Shown: positions 8,951 through 63,246 of the stretch, piece after piece | Position numbering within the stretch: the stretch's first letter is position 1 | Layout of the letters: each line of letters opens with the position of its first letter | Origin: an uncultured Victivallales bacterium | Lineage (GTDB): Bacteria; Verrucomicrobiota; Lentisphaeria; Victivallales; UBA1829 | Direction of reading: 5' to 3' | Assembly (NCBI GenBank): GCA_944391115.1 | Contig: CALXSJ010000014.1 | Location: forward strand, 1-64,000 | DNA: 64,000 nt | Made by a program: the position numbers and the translations under genes | Notes under the pieces: generated by a model | Told to the model about the DNA's origin: nothing | The model's input: the letters and a program-made list of their open reading frames with translations, nothing else | Database searches by the model: none

Positions 8951-9054
8951 TAAGTCTGGAAACAATATTTTTCTGTACACAACACATCCCGTTATGGATG
9001 TTGTGGGCAGCTTGAAAAAAGGGAAAAACTCCGGAAACAATTTGCTCCGGTAGA

Positions 9055-10849: not shown

Positions 10850-10874
10850 TTCAAAAAAACAAACAGAAACATGG

Positions 10875-10916
10875 GTCTCCGGCAGGTGTTGAACCTGTCC
10901 GGAGACTCAATTTTTT
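10875..10916 (+). terminator. intrinsic terminator after the clamp-like gene
   Basis: GTCTCCGG-CAGGT pairs with ACCTG-TCCGGAGAC with a single bulge and is followed by six T. It lies within an apparent co-directional run of genes, so downstream genes may be partly insulated or reached by read-through. The downstream ribosome site AGGAG begins just after the T-run. Confidence 0.8.
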
Positions 10917-10929
10917 CAGGAGATTTATC

Positions 10930-11376: not shown

Positions 11377-11377
11377 A

Positions 11378-12163: not shown

Positions 12164-12167
12164 GACG

Positions 12168-12905: not shown

Positions 12906-13020
12906 TCGCGGGTATTCACCCCATGGTACGCCCTCTGCCGGAAGTGGTGCAAACGGCAGAGTATTCATGCACTCCGGCGGCTTCGGTCGCCGGTTTTCTA
13001 TTCAAAACAGAAAGGAAAAA

Positions 13021-13335: not shown

Positions 13336-13343
13336 GTGAAGCT

Positions 13344-13493
13344 ATGACGGATGAGATTCATTGTCCGGACTGCGGTTCTATTCGCTGTATTCCGTGGGAT
13401 GACGGATGGCTCTGCCGTTGTTGCGGTACGGAGTTCGATGTGCCGGAGTCAGTAGAGGAGTTTCCGGAATCAGAAACGAATATGAAAGATTAG
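13344..13493 (+). CDS. small zinc-ribbon protein, 49 aa
   Basis: AGGTGA lies 3 bases before the ATG at 13344. Two CxxC pairs, CPDCGS and CRCCGTEF, separated by 13 residues make a compact zinc ribbon, followed by an acidic tail (VPESVEEFPESE). It ends the plus-strand operon, just before a terminator. Such mini-ribbons often bind DNA or partner proteins; the role here is unknown. Confidence 0.7.
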   Translation: MTDEIHCPDCGSIRCIPWDDGWLCRCCGTEFDVPESVEEFPESETNMKD

Positions 13494-13503
13494 AATTACA
13501 CTC

Positions 13504-13538
13504 AAAAAGTATCCGGAGATTGCTCGGATACTTTTTTT
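13504..13538 (+). terminator. intrinsic terminator ending the replication-module operon
   Basis: AAGTATCCG (13507-13515) pairs with CGGATACTT (13525-13533), followed by a run of T. The left-side A-run means it may also serve minus-strand transcripts ending at 13554. Confidence 0.85.
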
Positions 13539-13553
13539 ATCTGGTGCATTCAT

Positions 13554-14222
13554 TCAAATCAAATGATCTTCTCTGAACACGGATTTACGGGATGGATATT
13601 CCGTCAGTTCGATCAGTTTTCGGAATTGTTCCCCGGTGCGTATCCGGTCTTTTAATTTCGGTAAAATATTGAGCCTGCGCCAATCTTCTTCGCAGAACAG
13701 ATCAAGACAGGGACATTCCGACAGCAGTTCGGCTGAGCTGTAAAGGATGCTCCACCACATCGGTTTCGTAAACTGTTCCTTGAAAGGACATTGAAACCAA
13801 TGGCGCGGATTATGCTTGATGATCCAGAACCAGTCACCAAGTGTGAAGTCGTGCGTGTCGATATCCCCTGTATAACTCCAGCCACTCGCCAGCAATCCGC
13901 TTCTTATAGCCGGGTGATCCGGGATCTCGCAGTAATGAAGCAAAGTCGGTTGGTGCCGTAATAATTTCTGCCACTGATACGGGGTGAAATCCTGCCAGCA
14001 GGAACATCGCCAGGCAAGCGGAAGTTGTCCGGATAAGGCTGTCACCCAGTCGTCCGGGGTGAACTCTGCAAACGGGCAGAACTCCTGTAGTTCCGGGTGC
14101 CGTGAAATAATACGTGCCCATTGTTTCGGTGACAAAGGAGCGGATACGGATTCTGTTTCTGCTGCAAAGGCGGCACAGTTCCATTCAAGATCAAGGAATG
14201 TGTTCAGTTCTGTTTCGGTCAT
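13554..14222 (-). CDS. Trp-rich tandem-repeat protein
   Basis: 222 aa from the ATG at 14222, with GAGGTG 4 bases upstream; in-frame ATGs farther upstream lack ribosome sites. The protein is built of repeats of about 25 to 35 residues with the pattern [FL]-T/S-x(2)-[DQ]-W-x(2)-[LI][LI]-x-x-x-P-x-[LW]-x-x-x-C, for example LSPKQWARIISRHPELQEFC, FTPYQWQKLLRHQPTLLHYC and FTLGDWFWIIKHNPRHWFQC. The regular W, P and C positions suggest a helical solenoid used for protein binding. No enzyme motif is seen. It is convergent with the replication operon. Confidence 0.8.
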   Translation of the reverse strand: MTETELNTFLDLEWNCAAFAAETESVSAPLSPKQWARIISRHPELQEFCPFAEFTPDDWVTALSGQLPLAWRCSCWQDFTPYQWQKLLRHQPTLLHYCEIPDHPAIRSGLLASGWSYTGDIDTHDFTLGDWFWIIKHNPRHWFQCPFKEQFTKPMWWSILYSSAELLSECPCLDLFCEEDWRRLNILPKLKDRIRTGEQFRKLIELTEYPSRKSVFREDHLI

Positions 14223-14258
14223 GGTGCACCTCATGTTTTTGTGTTGTGGATTTTGTGA

Positions 14259-14347
14259 CAGGAGGATGCCTGTCATAATATTGTTGTGCGAAAATAAAAC
14301 TGATTGCATAAGTATCCGGCTGGTGCGGTTTCCCGCACACAAGCCGG
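14259..14347 (-). other. hairpins between two minus-strand element genes
   Basis: GACAGG-AGGATG-CCTGTC forms a short stem near 14259-14276. A longer interrupted stem joins CCGGCT/GTGCGG (14316-14328) to CCGCAC/AGCCGG (14333-14347). They lie downstream of the YagK/YfjJ-type gene and may end its transcript, although no clean T-run follows. Confidence 0.4.
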
Positions 14348-14423
14348 TATCATCAAATTATCATCATCCGGACTCCGCCGGACTCTCATATCATAGTAGA
14401 CACGCTGTATTTTTTTACCGGAC

Positions 14424-15035
14424 TTATTCCTTCGGGATCTGCGTAAAACCAAACATCCGGCATCCCTCCGGAGTCTTTTCCTTTTCATTGACTTTCGCGG
14501 CATAACTCATCCAGTGAGAAGCATTATGCAGTTGCGTTTCCGCATCCGCCCCATGACGGCGAATCCGTATGCCGGTATTGTTGTCCGCCTGTTCCTGCGG
14601 TGGACAATAGCGAACATAATTGGAATCAGGGGATGTTCCGATTTCACGGGACCAGACATCATTGAAAAATCCAGCGATCTTTCGGACATTCTGAACCTTG
14701 TTGCCGTCACAAACCGGATAGCAGTGATAATGAGGATGTTCGGAATCACGTTGTTCTCGTGCCCAGACAAGCTGGGCGTCGATCCCCTCCCGTTTCAACT
14801 TCATCCGGCATTTGCGTATTGCATTGGAAATATGCCGGTTATCATTCTGTGTTTCCATTTCAGGAGGAAAACGGAATTCCAGATGCCCTACAAATACCTG
14901 GTTATGCTTCTCGGTCATGTAACGCAACCGCTTCTGTATTTCATTTACTGCCTCCCGATAAACGGGATGCTCCGGATCGGCATTCACGGATAAATGGTTT
15001 AACTGGCTTTCCGTGTGGTGGTGTCTTTTCGGCAT
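14424..15035 (-). CDS. YagK/YfjJ-type (inovirus Gp2-like) replication-associated protein
   Basis: 203 aa from the ATG at 15035 with AGGAGC upstream. The body resembles the YagK/YfjJ C-terminal domain: a strand with FVGHLEFRFPP, a helix RHISNAIRKCRMKLKR, then the central SEHPHYHCYPVCDG, which carries an HxH-type metal-binding motif (His102, His104) as in HUH replication initiators, followed by a helix and VRYCPP. Proteins of this family are found in inoviruses and in CP4-like integrative elements such as the one with YfjJ in E. coli. The iteron-like field starts about 175 bases upstream. I infer a role in starting element replication; the catalytic tyrosine is not certain. Confidence 0.72.
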   Translation of the reverse strand: MPKRHHHTESQLNHLSVNADPEHPVYREAVNEIQKRLRYMTEKHNQVFVGHLEFRFPPEMETQNDNRHISNAIRKCRMKLKREGIDAQLVWAREQRDSEHPHYHCYPVCDGNKVQNVRKIAGFFNDVWSREIGTSPDSNYVRYCPPQEQADNNTGIRIRRHGADAETQLHNASHWMSYAAKVNEKEKTPEGCRMFGFTQIPKE

Positions 15036-15210
15036 GATTTGCTCTGCTCCTTTTCTGAATGATTTTATGTATGCCATGATTGATTTCTGTTCTGTAATTA
15101 TTCTCATTCTGGATTCGAACAATCATTGAAATCAATTTCCGTATCTTATTTCCGGGCTTATTCTGTGCTTCCTGTTCTCTGTTCATCGTTTTCTTATGGT
15201 TGCTGTTTAG

Positions 15211-15300
15211 GCTTATGGCTTTATAGCTTCCTGATAACTTTATAGCTTTTATAACTCTTATAGCTTACTCTAATAGCTCTTATAGCTTAGCTTTAGCTAT
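15211..15300. repeat. iteron-like direct repeats (TTATAGCTT), candidate origin
   Basis: Exact TTATAGCTT copies start at 15221, 15240, 15258 and 15280, spaced 18 to 22 bases. Degenerate copies occur at about 15213 (TTATGGCTT), 15271 (TAATAGCTC) and 15292 (TTTAGCTAT). The field is AT-rich and lies between the YagK/YfjJ-type gene and the AlpA-like gene, where an origin would be expected. Confidence 0.7.
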
Positions 15301-15457
15301 TTCTAATAACCGAGTTGTGCCTGATCGAATTTTGCCTGCATTTCCATAACTTTTTAAAACATGAGTTGCCGTAATGCTGAATGAGGCTGTTTTTACACTT
15401 AGGTCTCGCATAAAATAACAGGTTTTCAAAAGTAAAAAAGATTCATGACCCGCGATC

Positions 15458-15484
15458 GTATGCGCTCAAAGGAGGGGCGCATAC
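15458..15484 (+). promoter_or_regulatory. hairpin displaying the ribosome site of the AlpA-like gene
   Basis: GTATGCGC (15458-15465) pairs with GCGCATAC (15477-15484), which ends exactly one base before the ATG. The loop holds AAAGGAGG, so the ribosome site is presented in a stem-loop abutting the start codon. Such a structure could control translation. Confidence 0.55.
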
Positions 15485-15811
15485 ATGAATGAAATCAGAA
15501 TTTCAATGAATACCGTTCGCTTCTTCAAACGAATCATGCGTCCGGTCGCGGAAGAAGGAATTATTTCACTGCCGGAATACAATGAGGCGATTTCTCAATT
15601 GACCAGCCTTGCGGAACACGGGGTTCCCAAACCTGTGGTCACTCCGAAACTTCTGGATCAGCGTGAGGTCGCGGAGATGCTCAACATCAGCCACAGCAAT
15701 TTCAAAAAGCTCGAAGCCGAGGGAGCTTTCCCGTTCAAAAGAAAAATGGTAGGCTCAGCAGTGCGATACCGCAATACCGATGTTCTGAATTACATCAGTT
15801 CCTATGACTGA
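15485..15811 (+). CDS. AlpA/excisionase-like helix-turn-helix protein
   Basis: 108 aa. Residues 56-105 form a MerR-type winged helix (LLDQREVAEMLNISHSNFKKLE ... then SAVRYRNTDVLNYI), the fold of AlpA regulators and recombination directionality factors. The first 50 residues form a separate helical part. In CP4-like elements AlpA activates the integrase and excision. Its 3' end overlaps the convergent gene by 10 bases. Confidence 0.8.
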   Translation: MNEIRISMNTVRFFKRIMRPVAEEGIISLPEYNEAISQLTSLAEHGVPKPVVTPKLLDQREVAEMLNISHSNFKKLEAEGAFPFKRKMVGSAVRYRNTDVLNYISSYD

Positions 15812-17082
15812 TCTTTCCATTGCTGAATTCCGCGTTTTCGGTAATGTCTGTGTTTTTTATAGACACGAATATTCCATAATGCCATATATTTACGTAGCGT
15901 TGGAACAGAAATAGGCTTTGGCATGATGACACGTGTATTAATGTCCTTCACTATCTGGGAAATATCCTGTCCCTGCTGGACTCGTGTCCAGACAAAGTCC
16001 CGGAGATGCGCAGAATGAAGCATCTTGATTCGATACGTCCAATAAATCGCTTCCTTATGGCATGTATACCGGTATGTACACATGTCTCTGGAAGCAGATT
16101 TTGAGGCAATACAATCCCGGAAACACAGGTCCAGTTCCGATGATTTTCCTTTACGCCAGTAGTCCGCTTCATAAGCCATTTCAAATAATGAGCATGGCAT
16201 TTTTTCTTTTGCAATAATACAGACAAAGTAACCAGCCTCCGCCAAATTTTTCAGCATTTGCTTTAGGAGTTGCTTTTCTGTTTTTTTATATTCAAATCCA
16301 TCCAGAAAGATATTTTTCGGTAATCCGGGAATCGACAAAATACATTCCAAATTTGATTTTCCTGTTTCGTTCAGCTGCCAAGGAGCGGATTTGTTCCCCA
16401 GCAGACATGAAAAGAAATTTTTCCCATTTCTTATTATTCCATAATCCAGTTCTTTGCGAAGATCATCAAAAGCGAGATTTAGGTGCAGAAGCTTTATTTG
16501 CTGATGAAAGTTCCAGTAATCCTGTTCATTTGTAATATTTTTGAAGTATACAACATCCTTATTTTGATTAAAACGCCATGGAATTCCCCCTTTTATGCCG
16601 GTCGGCAAAATATTTCCCTGTTCCTCACAGGCACGTTGTATTTGGTTGATTCCATACCAGTCACGATGTTGACTACTGTCAGCGATATAGGCCGCAATAG
16701 ACAATCCCCAGGCGGTAAGATTTCCATTTCCCCAGAAAACTATATTTTTAACTTTTCCAAGCGTTTGACAGCCTATCGCTTTTTTCCCCTCCCAGTTGTC
16801 AAGAATAAAATGACTGCTGGGAACCAGTTTGTTAAAATCCATTGAAGTATGGCACGACTCTTGGTGTGTGGCATTTTGGGGGACTGGTGAGACGAGCGGT
16901 ATAGGTATATCTTGATTAGAGGGTGAGTCAGAACTGGAAGAATTATCGGACAGCATGTTTGGAAGATTAGCATTTGCATTTGCAGACGGGTGTGGCTCTT
17001 GAAAAAATGTAGATGAAGCTTGCGAACAATTATCACTATAATTAGATGAAAGATTCCCATTATTTACTGGTTCTGATTTCAT
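15802..17082 (-). CDS. unrecognised basic protein, possible degenerate RecA-fold ATPase
   Basis: 426 aa from the ATG at 17082, which has AAGGA about 8 bases upstream; ATGs at 17097 and 17112 are alternatives. The first 80 residues are low-complexity Asn/Ser/Pro. The segment NIVFWGNGNLTAWGLSIAAYIADS has the strand-turn-helix shape of a P-loop region but lacks the GK(T/S). PKNIFLDGFE followed by a helix and YFVCIIAKEK resembles a Walker B strand and next strand. The C-terminus (ISQIVKDINTRV ... VPTLRKYMALWNIR, then a Lys/Arg/His tail) looks like a DNA-binding helix-turn-helix. I cannot assign a family. It is AT-richer than the rest of the module and lies between the AlpA-like gene and the integrase. 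Confidence 0.65.
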   Translation of the reverse strand: MKSEPVNNGNLSSNYSDNCSQASSTFFQEPHPSANANANLPNMLSDNSSSSDSPSNQDIPIPLVSPVPQNATHQESCHTSMDFNKLVPSSHFILDNWEGKKAIGCQTLGKVKNIVFWGNGNLTAWGLSIAAYIADSSQHRDWYGINQIQRACEEQGNILPTGIKGGIPWRFNQNKDVVYFKNITNEQDYWNFHQQIKLLHLNLAFDDLRKELDYGIIRNGKNFFSCLLGNKSAPWQLNETGKSNLECILSIPGLPKNIFLDGFEYKKTEKQLLKQMLKNLAEAGYFVCIIAKEKMPCSLFEMAYEADYWRKGKSSELDLCFRDCIASKSASRDMCTYRYTCHKEAIYWTYRIKMLHSAHLRDFVWTRVQQGQDISQIVKDINTRVIMPKPISVPTLRKYMALWNIRVYKKHRHYRKRGIQQWKDQS

Positions 17083-17112
17083 GCTTTTTTCCTTCATTTT
17101 TTTTGATTTCAT

Positions 17113-17376
17113 TATTTCTTTTGCATAAATATATAATTATAATAAAATCATATCTAATATAATTAATATAGCAAATAAAGATTCATAAATCAAGTATAAT
17201 TTCTATTTTTTAATAGAGATAATAGTAAACTCCATTTTTGCATAAATAATATTTTTAATAAAGCATATTATTATTTTCTTTTTCTATAGAAAAGTATTTA
17301 TTCATATAGTGAATTTTATATTTTATAAATGCACAGATACATTACTGTCCTGTGCATTTGTAAGGAAGCATATTAA
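17113..17376. other. very AT-rich spacer upstream of the unknown gene
   Basis: Almost entirely A and T, with several TATAAT-like and TTATAAT-like words. It probably holds the promoter of the minus-strand gene at 17082 and may act as an easily melted region. No reading frame is supported. Confidence 0.5.
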
Positions 17377-18672
17377 TCAATCTTTTAAGATTTTAATAAT
17401 ACTTTGCACTTCTTGTGTATCTGGAAGATTTTGCAGATATTGCAAAGCTTTTTCGATCCGTGCCCTGTCGGATGGCCCTGCTGTTCCGCTGACGGCTTCT
17501 ATCGCCTTGAGCTGGGCATCTTCTCCGACGTGCGTATAAAACTGATCAATGATGTCGCTGTTCGCACCGAGGATCGAAACCACCACTGCTTTCGGAACAC
17601 CCGCCTCCGCGCAGAACGAGGCAAAACTGTGCCGCAGACTGTGGAATCCGTAGACAACCATCTTTCTTTTTCTTCCGGGAACTTCGACGTTGGTTTCCAT
17701 TCCGGCACGTTTGATGACGCGCATCACGTCGATATTGACAAAATTATCGCCTACGGATTTTCCCTTTGCGTCTACCGTCAAATAACGTTTTGCCACGTTG
17801 GGAGAGACGTAGGAGTCGATGCGCCATTCTTTTGCTTGCTCCAGTGCGCGGACAAGCGGTTCTGCGATGGGAATAGATACCTGTTTCCCGGTTTTAAACT
17901 GTTTCACCCAAATCCGACGATGCATCAAATCCACATGATCCCATTGCAGGAGAACGCAGTCCTTCAGCCTCTGTCCTGTATACATTCCGATCAGATAAAT
18001 GACTTTCAGCTCTTTTTTATTCATGACTTTGAAACTCGGATCGTCCAGAACCTTGAGAATTGCTTCTTCCTGTTCTTTTGTGAATGCAAGACGACGCACC
18101 GTGTTTCCTTGTTCTTCCCGTGGCTTTCTGCGCAGATTCTGGGATGCAAACGGGTTGTCTTCGGAATAATAATCCGAGAGTGTGGTAAAGATTTTTCTGA
18201 GACGGAGAATTTTCCGATTATGTGTGGATACTGAAATTGCTGTCGTCTTGAGATAAGCCGCATATTGGTCTGCGATACCTGGGGTAATTGCCGCCACCTG
18301 TGTTTCTTCCCCGATGTAACGTATGAATTCCGTAAAGGTTGTTTCGTAGGAAATTTCTTCATGACGTGTCGTGGGAAATGCCCTGTCCGGATGTTCCGCA
18401 TAAACTTTCCAAGCGTCTTTCAGAGCAAGCGGGCGGCTTTTCCTTGCGAGATTGCGTGCCACTTTGACATGTGCGGAGATCACTTCTGCCGTTGTTGCCT
18501 GAACGATGGGCAGAAGTTCTTTTGCTTTTTTCAGAGCTTCTTCCTGATTCTGCGTTTTCAGGCTGACACATTTTCGTTCATGATTGACCTGATAGCGGAA
18601 ATAATAAGTTCCGCCTTCTTCCTTCTGATAAACAGTTCCGGTTTCCAGTTTGATCTTGTTTTTCTTTCCCAT
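17377..18672 (-). CDS. tyrosine recombinase / integrase
   Basis: 431 aa with GGAGGATGAA before the ATG. The N-terminal part binds arms of DNA (AP2-like strands TYYFRYQVN), the middle 100-180 is the SAM-like core-binding domain, and the catalytic domain runs from about 195. Active-site residues visible are Arg235 (TGQRLKD), Lys263 (KTGK), His344 and Arg347 (HSLRHSF), and the nucleophile Tyr379 (DQFYTHV). The usual second His of the LGH motif is replaced (ILGANS), which is tolerated in some integrases. It lies 109 bases from the right att repeat in tRNA-Lys, the normal position for an integrase of a tRNA-targeting element. Confidence 0.95.
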   Translation of the reverse strand: MGKKNKIKLETGTVYQKEEGGTYYFRYQVNHERKCVSLKTQNQEEALKKAKELLPIVQATTAEVISAHVKVARNLARKSRPLALKDAWKVYAEHPDRAFPTTRHEEISYETTFTEFIRYIGEETQVAAITPGIADQYAAYLKTTAISVSTHNRKILRLRKIFTTLSDYYSEDNPFASQNLRRKPREEQGNTVRRLAFTKEQEEAILKVLDDPSFKVMNKKELKVIYLIGMYTGQRLKDCVLLQWDHVDLMHRRIWVKQFKTGKQVSIPIAEPLVRALEQAKEWRIDSYVSPNVAKRYLTVDAKGKSVGDNFVNIDVMRVIKRAGMETNVEVPGRKRKMVVYGFHSLRHSFASFCAEAGVPKAVVVSILGANSDIIDQFYTHVGEDAQLKAIEAVSGTAGPSDRARIEKALQYLQNLPDTQEVQSIIKILKD

Positions 18673-18780
18673 TTCATCCTCCGGCGATGAAAAATCCTGT
18701 TTTGGCTAAAATAATACGGAAAAAAGAGAAAGAAAGCTCTGAATGGTAATAAACGGTAACTTTTCTTTAGAAATGAGGCT

Positions 18781-18801
18781 AAAATGGTGCGCCCACAAGG
18801 A
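18781..18801. repeat. right attachment-site repeat inside tRNA-Lys
   Basis: Identical to 218-238. It covers the last 17 nt of tRNA-Lys and four A beyond it. Because it keeps the tRNA intact, this is the element/tRNA junction that rebuilds the gene after integration. Confidence 0.85.
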
Positions 18802-18860
18802 CTCGAACCTTGGACCCAATGATTAAGAGTCATTTGCTCTACCGACTGAGCTATGGGCGC
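18785..18860 (-). tRNA. tRNA-Lys (anticodon CTT)
   Basis: 76 nt with encoded CCA. Acceptor arms GCGCCCA and TGGGCGC pair, the D arm is GCTCAGTCGGTAGAGC, the anticodon stem AATGA/TCATT encloses loop CTCTTAA with CTT at positions 34-36, and the T arm CAAGG-TTCGAGT-CCTTG is perfect. It is the target of the neighbouring integrase. Confidence 0.97.
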
Positions 18861-48365: not shown

Positions 48366-49523
48366 ATGCAGAACGGCAGATATACAGGAAACGACATTGT
48401 CCGGGATATTGAGAAACAGATCCTGAACAATCATCTGGCACGCGGCGTCCGGCTCAACACCAGCCGGGAACTGGCAGCCCGCTATTCCGTATCCCTGAAA
48501 ACCGTGGAGCGCGCCATGGCCCGGCTCCGGCACCGCGGATTGATTTCCAGAGTGCGCGGCAGAGGCTCCTTCGTGCTCTCCAGCCAGCCGCCGCTCAATA
48601 AACTGCGGGTTTGTCTCTTCTGCTTCTCCCGCCCGAACTTCCTCAACGATTCACCGGCGGCCACATTTGCGGCGTTCGACTATCTGCAGCAGCAGATCCA
48701 GCGTCAGCTGCTCGAAGCCGGTTACAATCTGGATTATCTCACGGAAGCGCCCAATCTTGACAAGCCGCATTCCCGTCTCCTGCGGACCTGCCTTGACAAA
48801 TACGACATTGTCATCACTCCGGCGGGAGTTCTGGAATATGCCGAGGAATATCTGCGGGAGTGCAAATCGCAGGTGATTCTCATTATGGACGACGTCGTCC
48901 GGCACGGCCCCTGGCATCAGATTGTTTACGACTACCGGCAGGGATTCTCCAGCGCGCTTGCGCTGTTCCGGAAACTGGGGTGTTCCCGGATCCTGTCCGT
49001 GGGATTTGCCGACGAGGAAACCTCCGCGCACCGGATGGGAGTCTTCCGCGAAGAGGCGGCGCGGATGGGCTTCCCCGAGAAGAACATCGTGGACTATTTC
49101 GGGGAATGCAATCCCGTTTCGCGTTTTCTGACCGGACAGGTCTTTGCGGAATATTATCTGGACCGGAAACTGTTCGATCATGCCGTATTCAGCACCAGCG
49201 ATTTCCTGACGCTCGGCATGTATACCGTATTCGAGAAGCGCGGTGTCCTGCCGGGACGTGATTTGCAGCTGATCAGCTATGACAATTTTGAAGGGCGGCT
49301 GAACCGGCCGGACTTTCGATTCGGAATCACAGGAATCACCCATCCGCAGGATGAGATGGCACGCGCGCTGTCGGCGCTGCTGGAGAGTCTGGAAAAAATT
49401 CCTTCCGGCAATGATTTCTACAAAACCTACTTTGTTCCTGCAAAGGAGCTGGTCATACGCGATTCCACGGCAAAGGGTGTCACCATCAAGAGCAATGGCA
49501 GGAAAAACAGAATGCAGGATTGA
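48366..49523 (+). CDS. GntR-type regulator with LacI-like ligand domain
   Basis: 385 aa. The N-terminal 70 residues are a GntR winged helix (LARGVRLNTSRELAARYSVS, then VERAMARLRHRGLISRVRGRG). The remaining 300 residues look like a periplasmic-binding-protein/LacI sensor fold (RVCLFCFSRPNF, YDIVITPAGVLEY, SRILSVGFADEETSAHRMG, DHAVFSTSDFLTLGMY, GRDLQLISYDNF). This architecture is that of AraR-like sugar-responsive repressors. It is preceded by perfect promoter boxes and by four copies of AGTCCATTT-like sites, so autoregulation is likely. No clear ribosome site before the ATG. Confidence 0.9.
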   Translation: MQNGRYTGNDIVRDIEKQILNNHLARGVRLNTSRELAARYSVSLKTVERAMARLRHRGLISRVRGRGSFVLSSQPPLNKLRVCLFCFSRPNFLNDSPAATFAAFDYLQQQIQRQLLEAGYNLDYLTEAPNLDKPHSRLLRTCLDKYDIVITPAGVLEYAEEYLRECKSQVILIMDDVVRHGPWHQIVYDYRQGFSSALALFRKLGCSRILSVGFADEETSAHRMGVFREEAARMGFPEKNIVDYFGECNPVSRFLTGQVFAEYYLDRKLFDHAVFSTSDFLTLGMYTVFEKRGVLPGRDLQLISYDNFEGRLNRPDFRFGITGITHPQDEMARALSALLESLEKIPSGNDFYKTYFVPAKELVIRDSTAKGVTIKSNGRKNRMQD

Positions 49524-49673
49524 AAATTTCTTTATGGAAAGACTTGGTCCTTCATCCCGGAAACGGGGAACGGGGCATTCCCGGCAGGGAGATCGGCGTT
49601 CGGAAAATATTTCAGCAGACGAAAGTCAGAAAAACAGACAGCAGAATCTGATTTAATCAAAAGAGGTGCATCA

Positions 49674-50504
49674 ATGAGACAGAAACGGTTTCCCATTCGG
49701 AGCAGGTGGGCGGATCCCCGTTGCAGACACAGAGAAAAAAGAGTCGGATATTTTACACTGATAGAACTTCTAGTTGTAATCGCGATCATTGCCATTCTGG
49801 CCGGAATGCTTCTTCCCGCGCTGAAGACGGCAAGAGAAAAAGCGAGAGCCATCAGCTGTGTCAACAAACTGAAGCAGATCGGAGTCTGGGCCGCATCCTA
49901 TGCCGCGGATTCCGACGAAATATGGAACAGCCCGTATGACTACAATCTCGGACTCAGATGGGGCAAAGTTCTGCTGGAATACAACAATATGCTGACCGTC
50001 CAGAATGCGAAAAATCATCTGAACTGCACGGATTATGTCCCGGAAAGCAAAGATTTGAACTGGGTTCTCTACCATACCTACGGATCCATTGTCGGCATGG
50101 GCAATTTCGGAAATGCAAGCGTCATGACCTATGAACGTTCCGGGCCGTACTGGCATATCAAGCGCTTTCTGCATCCCTCGCGGCAGTTTCTGGTCGGCGA
50201 CTCCAGAAAAGCCACGGGAAGCGAAGCGTCACCGACCGGAGAAATTTTCTGCATGATGGCGAAAAACGAGGTCAACGACCGCGGGCTGGCGGCGCTGATT
50301 CACCAGAACCGCGCCAATATGCTCTGCATGGACGGTCACGTCATTGCCGCCGGTGTCGGGGAAATCAGAAGCAAGACGGTTTATTACATGCAGAACCGTC
50401 TGCCGCAATACCGTGTCATGTATCTTGCCGGCTTCCAGCAGCTGCAGACGCTGGGATGGAATATGCTTGATCTCGGTTCGAACGTGCAGGAGGTAACCTG
50501 GTAG
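49674..50504 (+). CDS. DUF1559-like pseudopilin (type II secretion-like)
   Basis: 276 aa. A basic leader is followed by [20 protein letters not shown], the prepilin peptidase site and hydrophobic N-helix, with cleavage expected before Phe of FTLIE. The C-terminal part has the H-x9-DG motif (His-Gln-Asn-Arg ... Cys-Met-Asp-Gly) characteristic of the abundant pseudopilins of Planctomycetes and Lentisphaerota. GAGGTG precedes the start. It lies between a regulator and a secreted GH16 enzyme and may be part of the machinery or scaffold used for external glycan degradation; this is inference. Confidence 0.9.
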
Positions 50505-50669
50505 CAGACCGGACTGCGGACTGGAAAACCTAGAACATTCCCTCGGCCTTCTCCGCCGGAAATTCTTTTCCTCCCGAAACCGCAGGATGTTTCGGAAACA
50601 AGGAAGGTCTTTCCCTGTCACGAAAAATCAAACGTGAAACACGGATTTTTTAATCATCAGGAGTCATCT

Positions 50670-53222
50670 ATGAAAAAAATGTTTTTGACAGGCTTTCTCT
50701 GCGCGGCGCTTGGACTGAGCCTGCAGGCGGAAAACCGGATTTTCGAACAAACGTTCGGGAAGGACGCTCTCCGGGACTGGGAACAGAACCAGTCGGCTCA
50801 TTTCCGCCCACCGGGAAAAGTCCTTGCGACGGAAAAAGGTCTGGTGCTGCAGGCGGAGAAAGCTCCGATTCATTTGTTCACAAAGAAATTTTATCCGGTC
50901 CGCGCAGGGGACATTGTCACGCTCACACTGGACTTCGAAACCAGAACCGGCGGCAGTTTTTCCCTCGGCGTCTACCGTTTCCACAGGGGACACTGGATCG
51001 GAAATGATATGACGACGTTTTACGTCAAGCCGGGGGAAACGACGGCAAGCCGGTCCGTAACCGTGAAATCCGCACGGGACAGAAAGACCCGGGACATGCG
51101 GATCGTAATCGGATTTTCAGGAAAAGACTCGGAAGCCGTCCTGAAAAAAATCAAGGCCTCCTTTTCCGGCGTCGATCTGAAATGCTCCGACAAACAGCCC
51201 CTTCCTCCGGGAATCATCCTGCATTATGACATGTCCCGCGTGTCGTCTCTGGACGCGGCGGACGGAAAAATCAAACGCTGCACGGACCTTTCCGGAAACG
51301 GCAATGATGCTGTCTCCGTGCCCGGCAGGGAACCGACCCTTGCCGGAAACGACGCATCGTTCGCCGGAAAAAACTCGGCCCGCTTCTTCGGAAAGCAGGA
51401 GATGCGCTCCCTGCGGAATCTGAATGCGGAAAACGGTATCACCACTTTCGTCGTCTTCCGCAGGCGGGCGGAGGAGGGAAAGGGGGAAATGTGGCAGGAC
51501 TCCCTCTATTGGGGAGACGGAAAACACTCCGACAATACCGCGCGCTATCATCAGCACATGGGAGAAAACAGGAATGAGGAGCCGCCCGCGATCTTCTTCA
51601 ACGCCAGCAGCTTTCCCGCATCCTACCCGATGCGCATCGGCTCAAACGGAGGATTCCGCGGATTCCTCTGGGGAGACATCGGAGAGATTCTTGTCTTCGG
51701 GCGCACCAATCTCACGGCAAAAGAAACGGAACAGGTCCGGAGCCATCTCCTGAAAAAGTGGCGGATTGAAGAAAACGACTTCACACGCATCGGACCGCTT
51801 CCGCAGGGACCGCGCCCCGTTACACGGGCTTATCCGCTTTCCGACCAGACAAACAAGGGAAACTGGCGGACGGTTCCGGAACTGACCGACGAATTCGACG
51901 GCCCCGAACTGGACCGCGGCAAATGGACCGACCAGAACTACTGGACCCTGGGAAGCTCATCCACGCGGATTCTGCCGGAAAATCTCGTATTGAAAGACGG
52001 CATGATCCGGATTGTTTCCAAGTATGACCGCAATATGCCGTCCGGACGCCTTTATCCCCGGGACATGGAATATCACTCTTTTTCCACTGGCACGCTGAAA
52101 TCACTGCATCTGATCCGTTACGGCTATTTTGAAGCGCGCATTAAAATGCAGGCAACCACACTGAACAACGCATTCTGGCTTTTCGCCAACGCAACGGAAA
52201 AGAAGACAGGACGGCGGGCGGAACCGGAGATTGACATTTTCGAAGTCGGCCCGCGCTCCTTCCGCGGATCAAGAAACTACAACATGACCCTGCATTCCAT
52301 TGAAAGGCATCCGGAAAGAAAACACTACAACTTCGGCAGGAGCTGGACATCCAATTTCGACTTCGCCGCGGATTTCCATGTCTACGGCCTGGAATGGAGC
52401 CCGAAATTCATCCGCTGGTATATTGACGGCGTACTGGTCCGGCAGTTCAAGGTGGAGCGGAACTTCTGGAACATGCCCATGCAGCTCCATTTCGATGTCC
52501 TCAACGCATACGGCTGGATGGGAGTGCCAGATCCGAAAGACTTTCCGGCGGAAATGGTGATCGACTACTGCCGGGTATGGAAAAATCCGGAGACAACCGT
52601 TCCCGACGACAAATGGGAAGAAGAATTCGACGCCACACACCTGCGTCCGCGCAACACCGGATTCGCCTATGATTATTACCGGAAACACGGTGCGAAAATT
52701 GTTTCCATAGCCTCCCGGAAAGAATCCGGACCGTTTGAATCCTTCAATCTCTGCAATGTAAACTCCCCGGCGGTGCGCGGAACGATTCAATGCGTCAACA
52801 ATGCGAAGTCCGCTACAACCCGGACGAAAGACGGCAAGGAGATTCCGGAGATCTTCCTGCCGCATGTCGCCGCTCTCAAGGACAACGGCGAAGTGCAGTA
52901 TGTGATCCAGCCCGTGGAATGGCCTGCGGTCATCTTCCCCGCAAAAGCATTGTCCTCCGTTCAGTGGGAGAAATTCCAATATTTCGCCCTGGATTTCGTC
53001 AACGATGCGGGCAGGCCTCTGGGAATCACCGTCACAGTGCAGCTTGAAAACAACGCGAAAGAGGAAAATGTCATGCTGATCAAGGAAGGTGCGGGTACCT
53101 GTTACTGGAGGCTCAGCGATTCCATCAGAAAAGGAAAAATCAGAAATATAAAAATCACGACAGTCCGCTCCTGCGATCATGACTTCAAGCTCGGCATCGC
53201 AAATTTAAGACTCGAAAAATGA
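50670..53222 (+). CDS. secreted GH16-family glycoside hydrolase with LamG-like domain
   Basis: 850 aa from the ATG at 50670 (CAGGAG upstream). A signal peptide is visible (MKKMFLTGFLCAALGLSLQA). Residues about 21-175 form a beta-rich domain, 180-365 a LamG/concanavalin-like domain (GIILHYDMSRVSSL), and 400-640 the GH16 jelly roll. The catalytic motif E-x-D-x-x-E is EIDIFE (Glu520, Asp522, Glu525), with FEARIKMQ before it and FHVYGLEWSPKFIRWYIDG after it. A C-terminal beta domain of about 200 residues follows. GH16 enzymes cut beta-1,3/1,4-glucans, agar, carrageenan or porphyran; the exact substrate is not readable. Confidence 0.92.
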   Translation: MKKMFLTGFLCAALGLSLQAENRIFEQTFGKDALRDWEQNQSAHFRPPGKVLATEKGLVLQAEKAPIHLFTKKFYPVRAGDIVTLTLDFETRTGGSFSLGVYRFHRGHWIGNDMTTFYVKPGETTASRSVTVKSARDRKTRDMRIVIGFSGKDSEAVLKKIKASFSGVDLKCSDKQPLPPGIILHYDMSRVSSLDAADGKIKRCTDLSGNGNDAVSVPGREPTLAGNDASFAGKNSARFFGKQEMRSLRNLNAENGITTFVVFRRRAEEGKGEMWQDSLYWGDGKHSDNTARYHQHMGENRNEEPPAIFFNASSFPASYPMRIGSNGGFRGFLWGDIGEILVFGRTNLTAKETEQVRSHLLKKWRIEENDFTRIGPLPQGPRPVTRAYPLSDQTNKGNWRTVPELTDEFDGPELDRGKWTDQNYWTLGSSSTRILPENLVLKDGMIRIVSKYDRNMPSGRLYPRDMEYHSFSTGTLKSLHLIRYGYFEARIKMQATTLNNAFWLFANATEKKTGRRAEPEIDIFEVGPRSFRGSRNYNMTLHSIERHPERKHYNFGRSWTSNFDFAADFHVYGLEWSPKFIRWYIDGVLVRQFKVERNFWNMPMQLHFDVLNAYGWMGVPDPKDFPAEMVIDYCRVWKNPETTVPDDKWEEEFDATHLRPRNTGFAYDYYRKHGAKIVSIASRKESGPFESFNLCNVNSPAVRGTIQCVNNAKSATTRTKDGKEIPEIFLPHVAALKDNGEVQYVIQPVEWPAVIFPAKALSSVQWEKFQYFALDFVNDAGRPLGITVTVQLENNAKEENVMLIKEGAGTCYWRLSDSIRKGKIRNIKITTVRSCDHDFKLGIANLRLEK

Positions 53223-57465: not shown

Positions 57466-58242
57466 TTACTGACTCGGATCCGCGAGCCATTTTTCCTTGT
57501 TGTTATTGTAATCCGCTCCGAATCTGGAGTAGGGCCTGCTTTCGATGTGTCCGTCCGCGAAGGAGAAATTGGCGCTGATCCCGGGATGCCGGAAACGGGC
57601 CTTTTCACTGTTCTGGTTGAACCCGCCGTAACCGTTTCCCACCAGAATCGGATCCGCAAAGGCATACAGGGACGCGGGCTGTTTGAACTGCGAAAGCGGA
57701 ATCCCCTCATTCTGTTTCGTAAAGCGTTTTGAGGTGTTCTGGACGTTGATCGCATAGCCGAAATCGCGGATTCCGTCGCACCCCCAGATCCTGACGCTTT
57801 TCTGTGTAATCAGGTGCGACTGCCCCCGGTCATAATAATAACGCATCTGATAGAAGACGGAGAGCGTTTTCCTGTCGCCGTTGCTGTTGGAGGCGTGATA
57901 ACCGTCGTTGGTCAGATAGTCGTTCAGAAGCTCATACCAGTTGTAAGGCGTGTCCGGGCCGGTGGAATAGAAGAACAGATCCTTCACCCGGTAAGGCGGC
58001 GTGAAGTCCTTGCTGTCCGAGTAGTAAAGCGCGGCAAGGGTGTTGATCTGTTTCAGATTGGACGTGCAGCCGATCCGTTTCGCAACCTCCCGCGCCTTGC
58101 CGAGTGCAGGCAGCAGAAGCGCCGCCAGAATGGCGATGATCGCAATTACGACCAGAAGTTCAATCAAGGTAAAGGCGAATCCGCATCCGCCGGATCTGCA
58201 AGGAGAAACGGCGTTCCGGTGCACTGAATTTTGTCTCCGCAT
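57466..58242 (-). CDS. DUF1559-like pseudopilin
   Basis: 258 aa from the ATG at 58242, which has GGAG 6 bases upstream; ATGs at 58248 and 58254 overlap that ribosome site. After a 30-residue basic leader comes [20 protein letters not shown], the prepilin cleavage site and N-helix. The C-terminal [15 protein letters not shown] segment resembles the H-x9-DG motif with one extra residue between His and Asp. First of two genes with the secreted beta-helix protein. It shares the family of 49674-50504 but the two differ clearly outside the N-helix. Confidence 0.9.
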
Positions 58243-58280
58243 TTTCATCTCCATTTCCGATTTTCACGGTGAATTGTTAT

Positions 58281-59087
58281 TCAGATTCCGGGAAAGACAG
58301 GCGGAATCTGATCGTAAATGGCAAATCTGCCGACTCTTCTTTCCAATCCCCCGAAACCGGGCGCCGAAACCACCGTGAAGGAATGAATAACAGGTCTGCA
58401 CTGAAATCCCTTTGCCAGCTTTTCCGGAGGAAGTTCGGCCATCATGCGAAGGAGCGGTTTCGCGGAGGCATATGCGATCTCCGCGCCGTTCTCCGCGGCA
58501 TACAGCGAAATGACAAGTTTCTTCTCCTTCGTTGTTTCAAACAGAAGGGCGAAATGATAAAGAACATCCGGCTTCAAAATATAATTTGCGGATTTCCGCA
58601 GGATCTTCGTCATCTTCCCGTTCTCCCCCTTGAAAACCGGATCGGAGCAGAAGAGATCCAGCCAGAGCTCGCCGCGCATGTTCTTCCGGGCACCGGAATT
58701 GTAAAGCGCCAGACGCATCCCGTCTTTCGGCGAACCGAAGTCAATGACCCGGAAAACTCCGATGGGAGAGTTCGCGTCGATCGCACGGTTGTAACGGACA
58801 AAGAAATCGATTGCTCCATTAATGGTTCCGTTCCGCACCATGCCGTCGGGAGAATTTCCCGGAGAAAGGAAACGGATCCGAAAACCGCCTCGTTCTTTTT
58901 TCTCATCTTTGATTCGTGTCAGAAGCGCGTGATCCTCGACGGTGTTTTCCACGCTCCCCGACTTGATGACCGCCACGGTTCCGCCGGCCGCCTGGATTTT
59001 TCCGTTCCGGAAATCCAGGCGGAAAATCTCATTTCCCTGCATCAGAGCGCAGAAAAAGACCGGAATGAGCATCAGCAGAGTTTTCAT
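58281..59087 (-). CDS. secreted protein, 268 aa, function unknown
   Basis: A signal peptide is visible (MKTLLMLIPVFFCALMQG). The mature part is rich in beta strands (FRLDFRNGKIQAAGG, IDFFVRYNR, LYHFALLFETTKEKKLVISLYA), with the layout of a single LamG/concanavalin-like lectin fold, but no signature residues make this certain. It lies 22 bases downstream of the GntR-GH38 fusion gene on the same strand, so it is probably in the same transcript and connected with glycan sensing or binding. Confidence 0.75.
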   Translation of the reverse strand: MKTLLMLIPVFFCALMQGNEIFRLDFRNGKIQAAGGTVAVIKSGSVENTVEDHALLTRIKDEKKERGGFRIRFLSPGNSPDGMVRNGTINGAIDFFVRYNRAIDANSPIGVFRVIDFGSPKDGMRLALYNSGARKNMRGELWLDLFCSDPVFKGENGKMTKILRKSANYILKPDVLYHFALLFETTKEKKLVISLYAAENGAEIAYASAKPLLRMMAELPPEKLAKGFQCRPVIHSFTVVSAPGFGGLERRVGRFAIYDQIPPVFPGI

Positions 59088-59108: not shown

Positions 59109-61730
59109 TTATGAGATGGTGCAGTAAAAAGTCCGGATTTCAAAGGGACGGAAGGCGATCCGCGATTCAGAAACGCGGACAGGATCCGCACCGGAAAAAC
59201 CGGTTTCAAAAACGGCGGACACAAAATCCGCTTTCCGCATCGACGCGGCGGTTGCACTCCCGGCGGACTCATAGAACCGCACCAGAAAACCGGACCGGAA
59301 TCTGTGCATGCCGGACAACACAAGATTGGGGGCATCCCACTCCAGCAGCGGACCTTCGCGGATCACAGGCGACGCGACGCGCGGAGGCCGGTTGAGAATC
59401 TCCCCCAGCTCCACGGCTTTTCCCATCTCCAGCGGGGAGTGGGCGCGGAATGCAAATTCATATTCATGATGTCCGTTTTCATAACTGCCCTCCTGCGGAA
59501 CCATGCAGCCGTCCTTGATGTCCGTCCCGCTCCGCAGGAGACTGACGAGAATCTCTCCGTTGACAAGCTGGTGTCCCGGCGTCCCCGCATTGGCAAGCGT
59601 CAGTCCTTTTCGGTGATCGCTGTAATTCACCCAGTTGAGGGCGGGCCAGTCGCCGCGCGCCGAAACATAGTCGGCATCCGATTCCAGCTTTTTCATAAAG
59701 CCTTCGTTTTCCTGACGTACTTCGAAATAGGGTTTGCGGACCGTGCAGCCGAACGGAACCGCATAGGTTTCAGCCGCATACGCCATCTTCAGATCCAGCG
59801 GGAAACGGATGCTGATCTTTGTATTGCATCCCGTCCAGTCCAGCGAAAGTCTCAGCAGAAAATAATCCAGGCATTTCGGGAAGAGATACTCCTTGCGGAA
59901 TGTCAGGGAGCCGAATCCCGGCCAGTGGGAGCCGAGGTTTCCGGCGTCCGGCTGTTTCGGCAGAACAACACCCTCCGTAACGGCCTTGAAAAAAACCTCT
60001 CCTTCGGTAATTTCCACGACCTTTTCGCGCTGAAATTCCCGTCCCTGATAATAGTCCATGAATTTTTCCGTCCACATGGTCCCGTAATCGGAGCGGATCA
60101 GAATTTCTCCGAAATTTTCCCGCGCGAAAACATTTTCCCCCCGCAGAGTGCGGATCACGGGAAAGGGCTCGGAGAAATCAGCCTCGTAAAAATCCGTCCG
60201 GAAACGGGGAGTGCACGGCTTCGGAGAAGACGGTTTCCCCCGCGCGGCGCGGAAATTCCTGGCGCCGCAGGCGGGAAGTTCCACCGTGAAATAAGTTTTT
60301 CCGCCGTCAGCCTGCGCGGGAACCCCTTCCGGCGCAACGGCTCCGGAAACCAGACGGAGCCCTCCTGCGGAACCGAAGCTGCAGACGCTGAAATCAGGCC
60401 CCCGGGAAATGTCGAACGCCCGGTCCGCCGTCCGGATGACACGATCCAGTTTCCGCATGATTTCCCGGTTCGCCGCATCGGTATGGCAGCCGCACGCCGC
60501 ATCATGAAACTGTGCGGAAATCAGATCGTTCCAGAGCGTTTCCCTGTCCTCCTTCCCGCCGGAAAGCACATCCATGATCTCCGCGGAAATCAGCAGATTT
60601 TCCGCCTTGCGGATCGCCTGCTTGACGGAAATGCGCGTCGTGTAACATCCCGTAAAGGTCGGATTGAACTCCCCGTGAAACACGGGCAGGGAATCTTCCG
60701 CAATCTGTTGAAAATAAGCGCGGGTGCTTCCGAATTCCACAAGACGGCCCGGAGCGCGGTTGACGGTTTCGATGATCCAGAACAGATCCTCTTCAATGCG
60801 CCCCTCCTCGGTGACATAGTGCACCAGTGCGCTTCCTTCCAGATATTTCAGCGAAGCGACGCTCCGCGCAAGCTGATTTTCATAATCCCGGAGAACCGGC
60901 ACGTTTCCCGCATATCCCAGATGCGTGATCTCGGCTGCACTGTGCGCAGCGGTGATTCCCGTTCCGTCCGGACCGCGCCAGAAAAACGGACCGTTGGACG
61001 GAATGGAGCGGGGACAGTTCGCCATCCGTCCCGGAAGCAGGTAACGGAAGCCGCATTTGACGAGGATCTGGGGAAGCTGCGCGCACATGCCGAAGGCGTC
61101 TGTCATGCAGGCGATCTCCGGAGCGTCCCCGAAGACTTCCCGGTAAAAGTTCCTCCCGAGAAGCAGATTGCGGACGATGGACTCTCCGGAAACGAGATTC
61201 AGATCGGGAATACAGAGTCCGCCGAAATATTCAAAGCGTCCCTCCTGCCGGAGTTGCTGAAAACGGGCAAGATCCTCCGGATGTTTCCGGAGATGCACAC
61301 GCAGGATCTCCGCCTGTTCGATCCCGAAATGGAACTGGCTGTATTTCTCCGCAAGGCGCAGGAGATTCTGAATCTGCTCCTCGCGGATCGTGTCGTATTC
61401 CTCATAGGAATGGCGCCAGACAAGGTCGGAATGGTGCAGTGCGGAAAGATAAATCCGATCTTCAGTATCTTTTTGTATTTTATTTCTCCGATCTCTCCCG
61501 GACAGATCCGTCCGGACATAAAAACCGCTTGCGCCGCGGCATTCGACAAAACCGTTGTCCATCAATTCCCGCATGGCGTTCTGAATCACGGACAGGCTGA
61601 CATCAAAATGGGCGGACATGTCGCGGACGGTCGCAAGCCTCGCTCCCGGTTCAAGAATGCCGCGCCGGATATTCTCCACAATTTCATTGACAACCTGCTG
61701 ACGCTTTGTCGGCGAATTGGTCAGACTCAT
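59109..61730 (-). CDS. GntR helix-turn-helix fused to a GH38 alpha-mannosidase fold
   Basis: 873 aa from the ATG at 61730 (GGGAG upstream), one uninterrupted frame. Residues about 8-74 are a GntR winged helix (NIRRGILEPGARLATVRDMS, then VIQNAMRELMDNGFVECRG). From about 90 the sequence is GH38-like: zinc-site HHSDLVW (His100, Asp102), LCIPDLNLVSGESIVRNLL, the nucleophile-region MTDAFGMCAQLPQIL (Asp211), GEFNPTFTGCYTTR and ISAQFHDAACGCHT (Gln407-His409-Asp410). The beta-rich C-terminal domains follow. No signal peptide. Key residues appear kept, so it might be a real mannosidase, or a mannoside sensor that controls transcription. A secreted protein gene follows by 22 bases. Confidence 0.85.
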   Translation of the reverse strand: MSLTNSPTKRQQVVNEIVENIRRGILEPGARLATVRDMSAHFDVSLSVIQNAMRELMDNGFVECRGASGFYVRTDLSGRDRRNKIQKDTEDRIYLSALHHSDLVWRHSYEEYDTIREEQIQNLLRLAEKYSQFHFGIEQAEILRVHLRKHPEDLARFQQLRQEGRFEYFGGLCIPDLNLVSGESIVRNLLLGRNFYREVFGDAPEIACMTDAFGMCAQLPQILVKCGFRYLLPGRMANCPRSIPSNGPFFWRGPDGTGITAAHSAAEITHLGYAGNVPVLRDYENQLARSVASLKYLEGSALVHYVTEEGRIEEDLFWIIETVNRAPGRLVEFGSTRAYFQQIAEDSLPVFHGEFNPTFTGCYTTRISVKQAIRKAENLLISAEIMDVLSGGKEDRETLWNDLISAQFHDAACGCHTDAANREIMRKLDRVIRTADRAFDISRGPDFSVCSFGSAGGLRLVSGAVAPEGVPAQADGGKTYFTVELPACGARNFRAARGKPSSPKPCTPRFRTDFYEADFSEPFPVIRTLRGENVFARENFGEILIRSDYGTMWTEKFMDYYQGREFQREKVVEITEGEVFFKAVTEGVVLPKQPDAGNLGSHWPGFGSLTFRKEYLFPKCLDYFLLRLSLDWTGCNTKISIRFPLDLKMAYAAETYAVPFGCTVRKPYFEVRQENEGFMKKLESDADYVSARGDWPALNWVNYSDHRKGLTLANAGTPGHQLVNGEILVSLLRSGTDIKDGCMVPQEGSYENGHHEYEFAFRAHSPLEMGKAVELGEILNRPPRVASPVIREGPLLEWDAPNLVLSGMHRFRSGFLVRFYESAGSATAASMRKADFVSAVFETGFSGADPVRVSESRIAFRPFEIRTFYCTIS

Positions 61731-61932
61731 GACGACTCCCGAGTTGTTTCTTCTTTCATTTCCTTTTATTATAAACGGGAAAAGCATCCCTGTCAATGCG
61801 GAGATTCATAAAAAATACAAAAAAATACAGAACGGAATCTCTTTCCCTTTCCGCATGCCACAAAAAACATGCCAGAAGCAGACGCCCCCTGTTTTTCTTT
61901 GACGCTCCGGGAATCCAAAAAAGGAGTCTGAC

Positions 61933-63246
61933 ATGGGACTGAAGTTCAATCCGAAACAGCGCGAAGGCTGGAAACTGCTGATTTCCCCGGAAAAAACGCG
62001 GATCCTGTTTGACGGCGGTTCGCGCTCCGGGAAAACCGCCCTGATCGCGGAATACCTGATCCGCCGCGCCCTGCAGTATCCGGGCTCGCGGCAGCTCGCG
62101 GCACGGAAATGCCGCGCACACGTGAAGACCTCGCTCTGGAACGACACGCTCAAATCTTATGTCTTGCGCCATCTTCCGCGCGGCTTCTGCCGTTTTCAGG
62201 AAAGCGAGCTTGCGATCCTGTTTCCCAACGGCTCGTCCATTCTCGCGGGCGGACTGGACGATGCGGAACGGACGGAGAAAATCCTCGGGAACGAGTACAT
62301 CACGGTCTTCCTCAACGAAGCCACGCAAATCTCCTTCCAGACCATGCAGATGGCATTGACACGCCTGGCCCAGCGCGTCCGGGACCGGAGGGGACGCATT
62401 GCCGTGCCGAAGCTGATTCTGGACTGCAACCCGCGCGGACCGCGCCACTGGCTGCATGCCGTCGGCGTCCGGCACACCGACCCGGAAACGGGTGAGACGC
62501 TTCCCGACGCCGCGCGATGGGCGCGCCTGAACTGGTCGGCGTATGACAACAGGGAAAATCTGCCGCGGGAATATCTCTATGCGCTGGAATCCCTTCCGGA
62601 AGTCATGCGCGAACGCATGCTCAACGGCGTCTGGCGCGGCAACGAGGGCGCGGTCTATTCCGAATTCGATGAGGATGTCCACGTCGTGGAACCGTTTGAA
62701 ATCCCCGGATCCTGGAGCCGCCTCCGCAGCATCGACTTCGGCTACACGAATCCGTTCGTCTGTCTCTGGGGCGCGCTGGACGCCGACGGAAGACTCTACA
62801 TCTACCGCGAACATTACAAGGCAGGCGTCCGCACCGCGGAACACGCCGAGACCATTCTGAAACTCTCGGGCGATGAACGCTATTGCGTCACCGTCGCGGA
62901 TCATGACGCCGCCGAACGCGCCGAGCTGGAATCGCACGGCATCCGCACCGAAGCGGCGGTGAAAAACGTGGCGGGCGGAATCCAGAGCGTCAAAAACCGT
63001 CTGGCCGTCTGCCCGGACAATCGTCCGCGTCTGTTTTTCTTCCGGACGCTCCGCAACCTTCTTACCGAAATTTACGATTACCGCTGGCTTCCCGCGCGGG
63101 ACACCGGAAATGCCAGGGAGGAACCGATCAAGCAGAACGATCACGCGATGGACGCGCTGCGCTACATGGTCGCCGCCGCGGACCATATGGGGAAACACAG
63201 TTTCAGAAGCGCCAGCATCCCGGTATCGCCGCACAGCCGCCGGTGA
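61933..63246 (+). CDS. orphan phage-type terminase large subunit
   Basis: 437 aa, PBSX/Terminase_3 type. ATPase motifs: Walker A GGSRSGKT (28-35) and Walker B ITVFLNEA with Glu129. Nuclease acidic residues: Asp268 in SIDFGYTNP, Asp323/Asp325 in VADHDA, and Asp403/Asp407 in QNDHAMDALRYM. All active-site residues expected of a headful-packaging motor are present. AAAGGAG precedes the start. No small subunit, portal or capsid gene lies next to it: its neighbours are a regulator and an O-antigen-type protein. It may be a prophage remnant or a gene-transfer-agent component. The base composition matches the chromosome. Confidence 0.9.
   Translation: MGLKFNPKQREGWKLLISPEKTRILFDGGSRSGKTALIAEYLIRRALQYPGSRQLAARKCRAHVKTSLWNDTLKSYVLRHLPRGFCRFQESELAILFPNGSSILAGGLDDAERTEKILGNEYITVFLNEATQISFQTMQMALTRLAQRVRDRRGRIAVPKLILDCNPRGPRHWLHAVGVRHTDPETGETLPDAARWARLNWSAYDNRENLPREYLYALESLPEVMRERMLNGVWRGNEGAVYSEFDEDVHVVEPFEIPGSWSRLRSIDFGYTNPFVCLWGALDADGRLYIYREHYKAGVRTAEHAETILKLSGDERYCVTVADHDAAERAELESHGIRTEAAVKNVAGGIQSVKNRLAVCPDNRPRLFFFRTLRNLLTEIYDYRWLPARDTGNAREEPIKQNDHAMDALRYMVAAADHMGKHSFRSASIPVSPHSRR

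Follow-up and report, generated by a model that had tools for sequence, protein, structure and literature searches.

What a bacterial transcription factor might do with the fold of a glycosidase is the question raised by one gene on a 64,000-nucleotide stretch of DNA (hereafter the window; positions 1 to 64,000 of contig CALXSJ010000014.1, assembly GCA_944391115.1) from an uncultured Victivallales bacterium of the class Lentisphaeria. The gene (59109–61730, minus strand) joins an N-terminal GntR-type winged helix-turn-helix (HTH) domain to a glycoside hydrolase family 38 (GH38) alpha-mannosidase fold. Its product is probably a one-component autoregulator that uses the GH38 fold as its effector domain and heads an operon of pseudopilin and secreted glycan-active proteins. 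Comparison of related loci demonstrates that the fusion exists and is conserved, that both domains are under selection, and that tandem repeats are linked to the HTH.

Domains and active site of the fusion

The minus-strand frame is open without interruption over 59109–61796 (open reading frame analysis), and homologues together with codon use place the start at the ATG at 61730, giving a protein of 873 residues; gene calls throughout were made with a simple codon-usage caller. Pfam was searched with the 895-residue frame (22 is subtracted to obtain the numbering used here) and returned, in order along the protein, GntR, Glyco_hydro_38N, Alpha-mann_mid, 38C, and 38C2. This bears out an earlier note on this DNA, written by a model from the sequence alone, which had described one uninterrupted frame joining a GntR winged helix to GH38. 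The score of PF00392 (41.9 bits, cut-off 27) places the protein in the GntR superfamily. On the GH38 side, the curated cut-offs were passed by 38N (118.4 bits, cut-off 25) and by the middle domain (52.9 bits, cut-off 31.1), with 38C2 (PF17677, E 2.5e-4) slightly under its own.

The C-terminal region is GH38 and gave no match to FCD, UTRA, aminotransferase, or Peripla_BP domains in Pfam, NCBIfam, or Foldseek, and the fusion lacks the characteristic effector domain of the FadR, HutC, MocR, YtrA, or AraR-like GntR subfamilies. NCBIfam models of MocR and other GntR regulators matched only within the first ~100 residues, the HTH region, and the same search found no pyridoxal phosphate (PLP)-binding aminotransferase-like domain of the kind that marks MocR proteins. 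Identity as a mannosylglycerate hydrolase (NF007331) was rejected at 74.7 bits against an equivalog cut-off of 1138.

The AlphaFold2 model, built from 17 input sequences, consists of a winged helix followed by a GH38 body (predicted local distance difference test score 84.5, predicted template modelling score 0.83). Helices at residues 9–22, 35–42, and 46–58 are followed by wing strands at 62–64 and 70–72; the HTH fold, on whose survival in a predicted structure the earlier reading had been made to depend, is therefore retained. The recognition helix (residues 46–58 in the model) contains Q50, which from the sequence pattern and established knowledge we take to occupy the position of the DNA-contacting Arg of FadR. 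Foldseek returned the GH38 enzymes of S. pyogenes and E. faecalis as top PDB matches (E about 1e-42, template modelling score about 0.72), with the S. pyogenes enzyme 2wyi best of all (E 4e-43).

In sequence alignments, H100, D102, D211 (the nucleophile), and H409 fall on the zinc-binding residues of GH38 enzymes of known structure, namely H13, D15, D125, and H351 in SpGH38 (PMC2815779) and H290, D292, D402, and H615 in SpAms1 (PMC7609781). All four are unchanged in 15 of 15 aligned fusions, and their numbering had been given exactly in advance. At the acid/base position, no aspartate was found in the fusions: Ams1 D493 aligns with Glu308, as does the corresponding residue of another GH38 protein of the same genome. 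The expectation of a near-complete GH38 enzyme thus stood for the fold and the zinc/nucleophile residues but not for the acid/base Asp. Glu308 is invariant in the fusions and common to most HTH-less relatives, and is for that reason not a sign of decay after fusion; it may be functionally equivalent to the aspartate. As judged by alignment, the GH38 fold is near-complete and its zinc/nucleophile site retained.

One alternative is a trigger enzyme: a working GH38 alpha-mannosidase whose HTH regulates its own operon in response to substrate or product. PutA and BirA are precedents for trigger enzymes. W105, F213, R235, and D410 are invariant alongside the zinc/nucleophile residues, in the fusions as well as in close relatives without the HTH, and the Asp-to-Glu change need not abolish activity, since it is shared by HTH-less relatives that include one (locus L098) within an amino-sugar catabolic cluster (annotated by sequence pattern, with a Pfam match for one gene). 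However, no characterised GH38 enzyme with Glu at the acid/base position was found in this analysis, ligand sensing alone could equally preserve an active site, and the fusions lead operons for secreted proteins rather than for cytoplasmic mannoside catabolism. This explanation overlaps with autoregulation through a GH38 effector domain, differing in that catalysis is kept, and we regard it as a real possibility against which we nevertheless lean.

Distribution and selection

In a class sample of 198 Lentisphaeria genomes, 22 uninterrupted frames run from the HTH through the GH38 C-terminus; they come from 14 genomes belonging to 10 genera in 3 families, so the fusion is conserved among relatives, as the earlier note had asked of a genuine one. 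A second fusion of the same genome, on another contig (C5), is a paralogue with 46% identity. The sample holds three HTH-less members, and no relative in it encodes the HTH and the GH38 part in two intact genes; split copies (G171, G194, G095, G140, G161) are only those broken by contig ends or frame breaks. Beyond the class, 388 genomes sampled across the phylum yielded a lone HTH-less match and no fusion, and a scan of genome contigs found the fusion restricted to records of Lentisphaeria, Lentisphaerae, or Victivallales.

The tree built from the GH38 part places 22 fused and 5 HTH-less rows in one clade with a Shimodaira–Hasegawa-like approximate likelihood ratio support of 100, outside which fall HTH-less relatives of Planctomycetota, Armatimonadota, Omnitrophota, and one Lentisphaeria genome. 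No HTH of the fusion's type was found near the closest HTH-less relatives in any frame checked. A single fusion followed by a few HTH losses would be the simplest reading of this tree, with multiple gains (four changes needed) as the alternative.

Ratios of nonsynonymous to synonymous substitution, taken from two ortholog pairs of sister genomes, were 0.11 and 0.04 in the HTH, 0.17 and 0.14 in GH38, and 0.74 and 0.32 in the looser linker; both domains are under purifying selection. Conservation, the neighbourhoods of the HTH-less forms, and selection together rule out an assembly join, a frameshifted separate HTH, or a decayed enzyme. That assembly or annotation merged two genes is accordingly a negligible prospect: the fusion recurs in independent assemblies, in 14 genomes and as paralogues within one genome, and no point in favour of an artefact was found.

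Beside two of the fusions, G016a and G009a, lie a diverged GH38-like gene of 828 residues and a mannonate-dehydratase-like gene (L069:11006–14443 and L070:10925–14363). The 828-residue protein reads DHNQNG where FHD would be expected. It was rejected as a parent of the fusion because this motif is missing, along with a large part of the signature of the subfamily.

Tandem repeats at the fusion promoter

Comparison of the DNA upstream of the fusions for shared operators, a check proposed in the earlier note, was positive and revealed tandem direct repeats. The predicted operator in the window (61810–61832) precedes a promoter of the form TTGACA-17-TATAAT (61768–61796), and in most fusions such repeats, helically phased at 10–11 base pairs (bp), lie beside the fusion's own promoter. 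Scored against dinucleotide-preserving shuffles, repetition at a lag of 10 was significant in 10 of 17 fusion promoter regions, and at a lag of 11 in three more, whereas at other GntR genes of the same genome, taken as a control, lag 10 was significant at 3 of 31 (Fisher p 5e-4). A pattern search of the genome returned the 61810–61832 site as its own best match and found the paralogue's operator once, at the paralogue's own promoter. No inverted repeat shared upstream of the fusions emerged from a search for palindromic operators, and a fixed phase between repeats and −35 box was rejected, the register varying by 1–2 bases between loci. A shared candidate operator is thus predicted to accompany the HTH at the fusion's own promoter.

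The repeats also have a direction. In all 19 scorable regions, the reading TGTAT or TTGTTC appears upstream of the −35 box and its reverse complement downstream of the −10 box, a count in which the loci are not independent and the promoter boxes were assigned by consensus. The repeats in these 19 regions therefore point at the promoter from either side, which may reflect a fixed polarity of the bound array. The core itself varies with residue 50 of the recognition helix. Fusions with Gln there have TGTAT, and those with Tyr or His have CTTGTT (or its complement) or TTGTTC; since the Tyr and His forms share one subclade, the covariation is no more than suggestive.

These results bear on whether the HTH does anything at all. 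It could be a passenger on an ordinary cytoplasmic mannosidase, with the promoter repeats belonging to another regulator, and the five relatives inside the clade that lack an HTH would fit such a view. Strong purifying selection on the HTH speaks against it, as do repeats that go with the HTH and are absent in 6 of 6 HTH-less relatives tested (lag 10) and from most of the genome's other GntR genes; we hold a passenger HTH to be very improbable.

Binding of the repeats by the fusion's own HTH remains the preferred account, although several points weigh against it. Just three classes of recognition helix and operator are available, two of them within one clade. No significant lag-10 repeat was found at the G008b, G016a, or G008c promoters; the repeat counts are not independent, given AT-rich promoters and related loci. 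Four further regions (L172, L108, L082, and the G020a operon start) gave lag-10 p values of 0.002–0.004, but these validation regions had been seen by eye before scoring and, with L082 close kin of L090, are only partly independent. Finally, all of the evidence is comparative and the relatives are almost all metagenome-assembled.

Operon context and comparison with known regulators

The fusion is the first gene of a same-strand set, separated by gaps of about 15–30 bases and followed by a secreted protein, a pseudopilin, and a pectate-lyase-like protein (Table 1); the signal-peptide-like start of the gene directly behind it agrees with the earlier description of a secreted-protein gene there. 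A pseudopilin and a large secreted protein lie downstream of most fusions, and the downstream proteins vary (pectate-lyase-like, GH42-like, DUF4838, flavin adenine dinucleotide oxidoreductase, PHP).

Table 1. Positions of the fusion gene, its domains, its predicted control elements, and the genes behind it, in window coordinates
Feature	Position	Strand	Basis or remark
GntR–GH38 fusion gene, 873 residues	59109–61730	−	Single open frame, Pfam domains, AlphaFold2, fusion kept in relatives
GntR winged-helix DNA-binding domain, residues 10–72	61515–61703	−	PF00392, E 7.7e-11
GH38 N-terminal catalytic-fold domain, residues 99–349, with H100, D102, W105, D211, F213, R235, and Glu308 (acid/base position)	60684–61436	−	PF01074, E 4.8e-34
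GH38 middle helical domain, residues 358–437, with H409 and D410	60420–60659	−	PF09261, E 3.9e-14
GH38 C-terminal beta domains, residues 626–735 and 813–868	59127–59855	−	PF07748, E 2.5e-5; PF17677, E 2.5e-4
Predicted operator, tandem direct repeat TTCTGTATTTTTTTGTATTTTTT, 10-bp period, oriented to promoter	61810–61832	−	Lag-10 p=0.02
−35 box TTGACA	61791–61796	−	Sequence, exact consensus
−10 box TATAAT, 17-bp spacer	61768–61773	−	Sequence, exact consensus
Downstream gene, 268 residues, signal-peptide-like N-terminus, without confident Pfam match	58281–59087	−	Syntenic in sister genome
Pseudopilin-type protein, prepilin N-terminal motif	57466–58254	−	PF07596; likewise arranged behind most fusions
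Secreted pectate-lyase-like beta-helix protein, 754 residues	55186–57450	−	PF12708, E 1.1e-29

We infer a circuit in which the N-terminal winged helix would bind the helically phased 10-bp direct-repeat array at its own promoter and so control the operon that begins with the regulator and continues with the secreted protein, the pseudopilin, and the pectate-lyase-like protein. The GH38 fold would stand in place of the usual effector domain, and its retained zinc site would bind an imported alpha-mannoside-like sugar in the GH38 pocket, thereby altering DNA binding. Repression is the favoured sign of regulation: the promoters come close to consensus, and in some relatives the operators would lie in the transcribed leader.

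The nature of the ligand may be questioned on the same context: the variable downstream proteins do not single out mannans, and there is no recurrent mannan-specific gene set. The GH38 fold might then be an oligomerisation scaffold or a binder of something other than mannosides, the regulator sensing another sugar or a partner protein. Yet the full zinc site is strictly invariant among fusions that are only about 40%–50% identical to each other, which argues that the pocket is used, and we consider this explanation unlikely. Also doubtful is a bolder version of the circuit, in which the fusions would form a new GntR subfamily whose still-active zinc alpha-mannosidase is enzyme and sensor at once on phased, polar 10-bp repeats pointing at the promoter; turnover would time the response, and the regulator would destroy its own inducer.

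A GH38 effector domain is best compared with the effector domains of other regulators, beginning with those of the same genome. GntR–Peripla_BP_3 (AraR-like) proteins are a common GntR form there and have a DNA-binding domain of the type seen in the fusion. At least one of them belongs to a locus of regulator, pseudopilin, and secreted glycan-active protein, heading a pseudopilin and a GH16 protein at 48366–53222. As such a regulator heads the same type of locus, GH38 appears to occupy the place of the usual sugar-binding domain. Unlike the fusion, these proteins carry an effector of the LacI/periplasmic-binding-protein fold, and 10-bp tandem repeats are rare upstream (3 of 31 GntR genes). In all, this genome (G000) has 65 GntR-domain matches in 3.66 Mb, many of GntR–Peripla_BP length and some heading pseudopilin/secreted-enzyme loci. 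Three of its GntR regulators (L013, L018, and L023) have a ~400-residue C-terminal region without a Pfam match, possibly an unusual effector domain.

MocR regulators couple a GntR domain to a fold-type I aminotransferase, commonly have direct-repeat operators, and often autoregulate (PMC5320631). The fusion resembles MocR/GabR in pairing a GntR winged helix with an enzyme-derived effector domain and differs in having a zinc-dependent GH38 glycosidase fold rather than a PLP aminotransferase, and in the helical phasing of its repeats at 10–11 bp. In plants, BAM7 and BAM8 combine a BZR1 domain with a GH14 beta-amylase that is inactive, with poorly conserved catalytic residues, and is proposed to be a metabolite sensor (PMC6394054). 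These too are transcription factors with a glycoside hydrolase as proposed sensor, and relatives that lost the DNA-binding domain likewise fall inside their clade; however, they are plant proteins with another DNA-binding domain and another glycoside hydrolase family, whereas the zinc/nucleophile site of the fusion is invariant. The fusion thus belongs to neither MocR nor BZR1–BAM, although by analogy its working principle would be alike.

Direct-repeat operators are also known for FarR (TGTATTAWTT) and NanR (TGGTATAW) (PMC4494728). The FarR unit and the fusion core both contain TGTAT, but FarR (HutC subfamily) and NanR (FadR subfamily) have no glycosidase domain. The GH38 alpha-mannosidases themselves (SpGH38 2wyi, E. 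faecalis 5kbp, and Ams1 6lz1) share the fold and the zinc/nucleophile residues at about 15%–17% identity, and the fusion departs from them in its added N-terminal GntR domain and in Glu for the acid/base Asp.

Searches of the open-licence literature, with subscription journals mostly outside coverage, found no prior description of a GntR–GH38 fusion, in agreement with the earlier note, which knew of no standard GntR subfamily with a glycosidase effector. The protein is probably a sugar sensor that controls its own gene, a type not previously described in bacteria. If so, glycoside hydrolases would take their place among the enzyme folds that bacterial one-component regulators have recruited as effector domains, here together with a likely operator. 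Fused and HTH-less forms lie in one clade and so offer a testable case of an enzyme becoming a sensor, with catalysis kept or not. The fusion could further provide a handle on the glycan signals that many Lentisphaeria pseudopilin/secreted-enzyme loci answer, and possibly a modular mannoside sensor.

Two other features of the window stand apart from the fusion operon. A lone gene for a phage terminase large subunit (61933–63246, plus strand) runs divergently from the fusion. No further phage gene was recognised next to it, and it is placed likewise in the sister genome (L065:10931–12244). At the opposite end, positions 1–18860 have a G+C content of 39%–48% compared with 54%–62% elsewhere in the window, and a phage-type integrase (17377–18672, minus strand) adjoins tRNA-Lys (18785–18860, minus strand); this segment is probably an integrated element.
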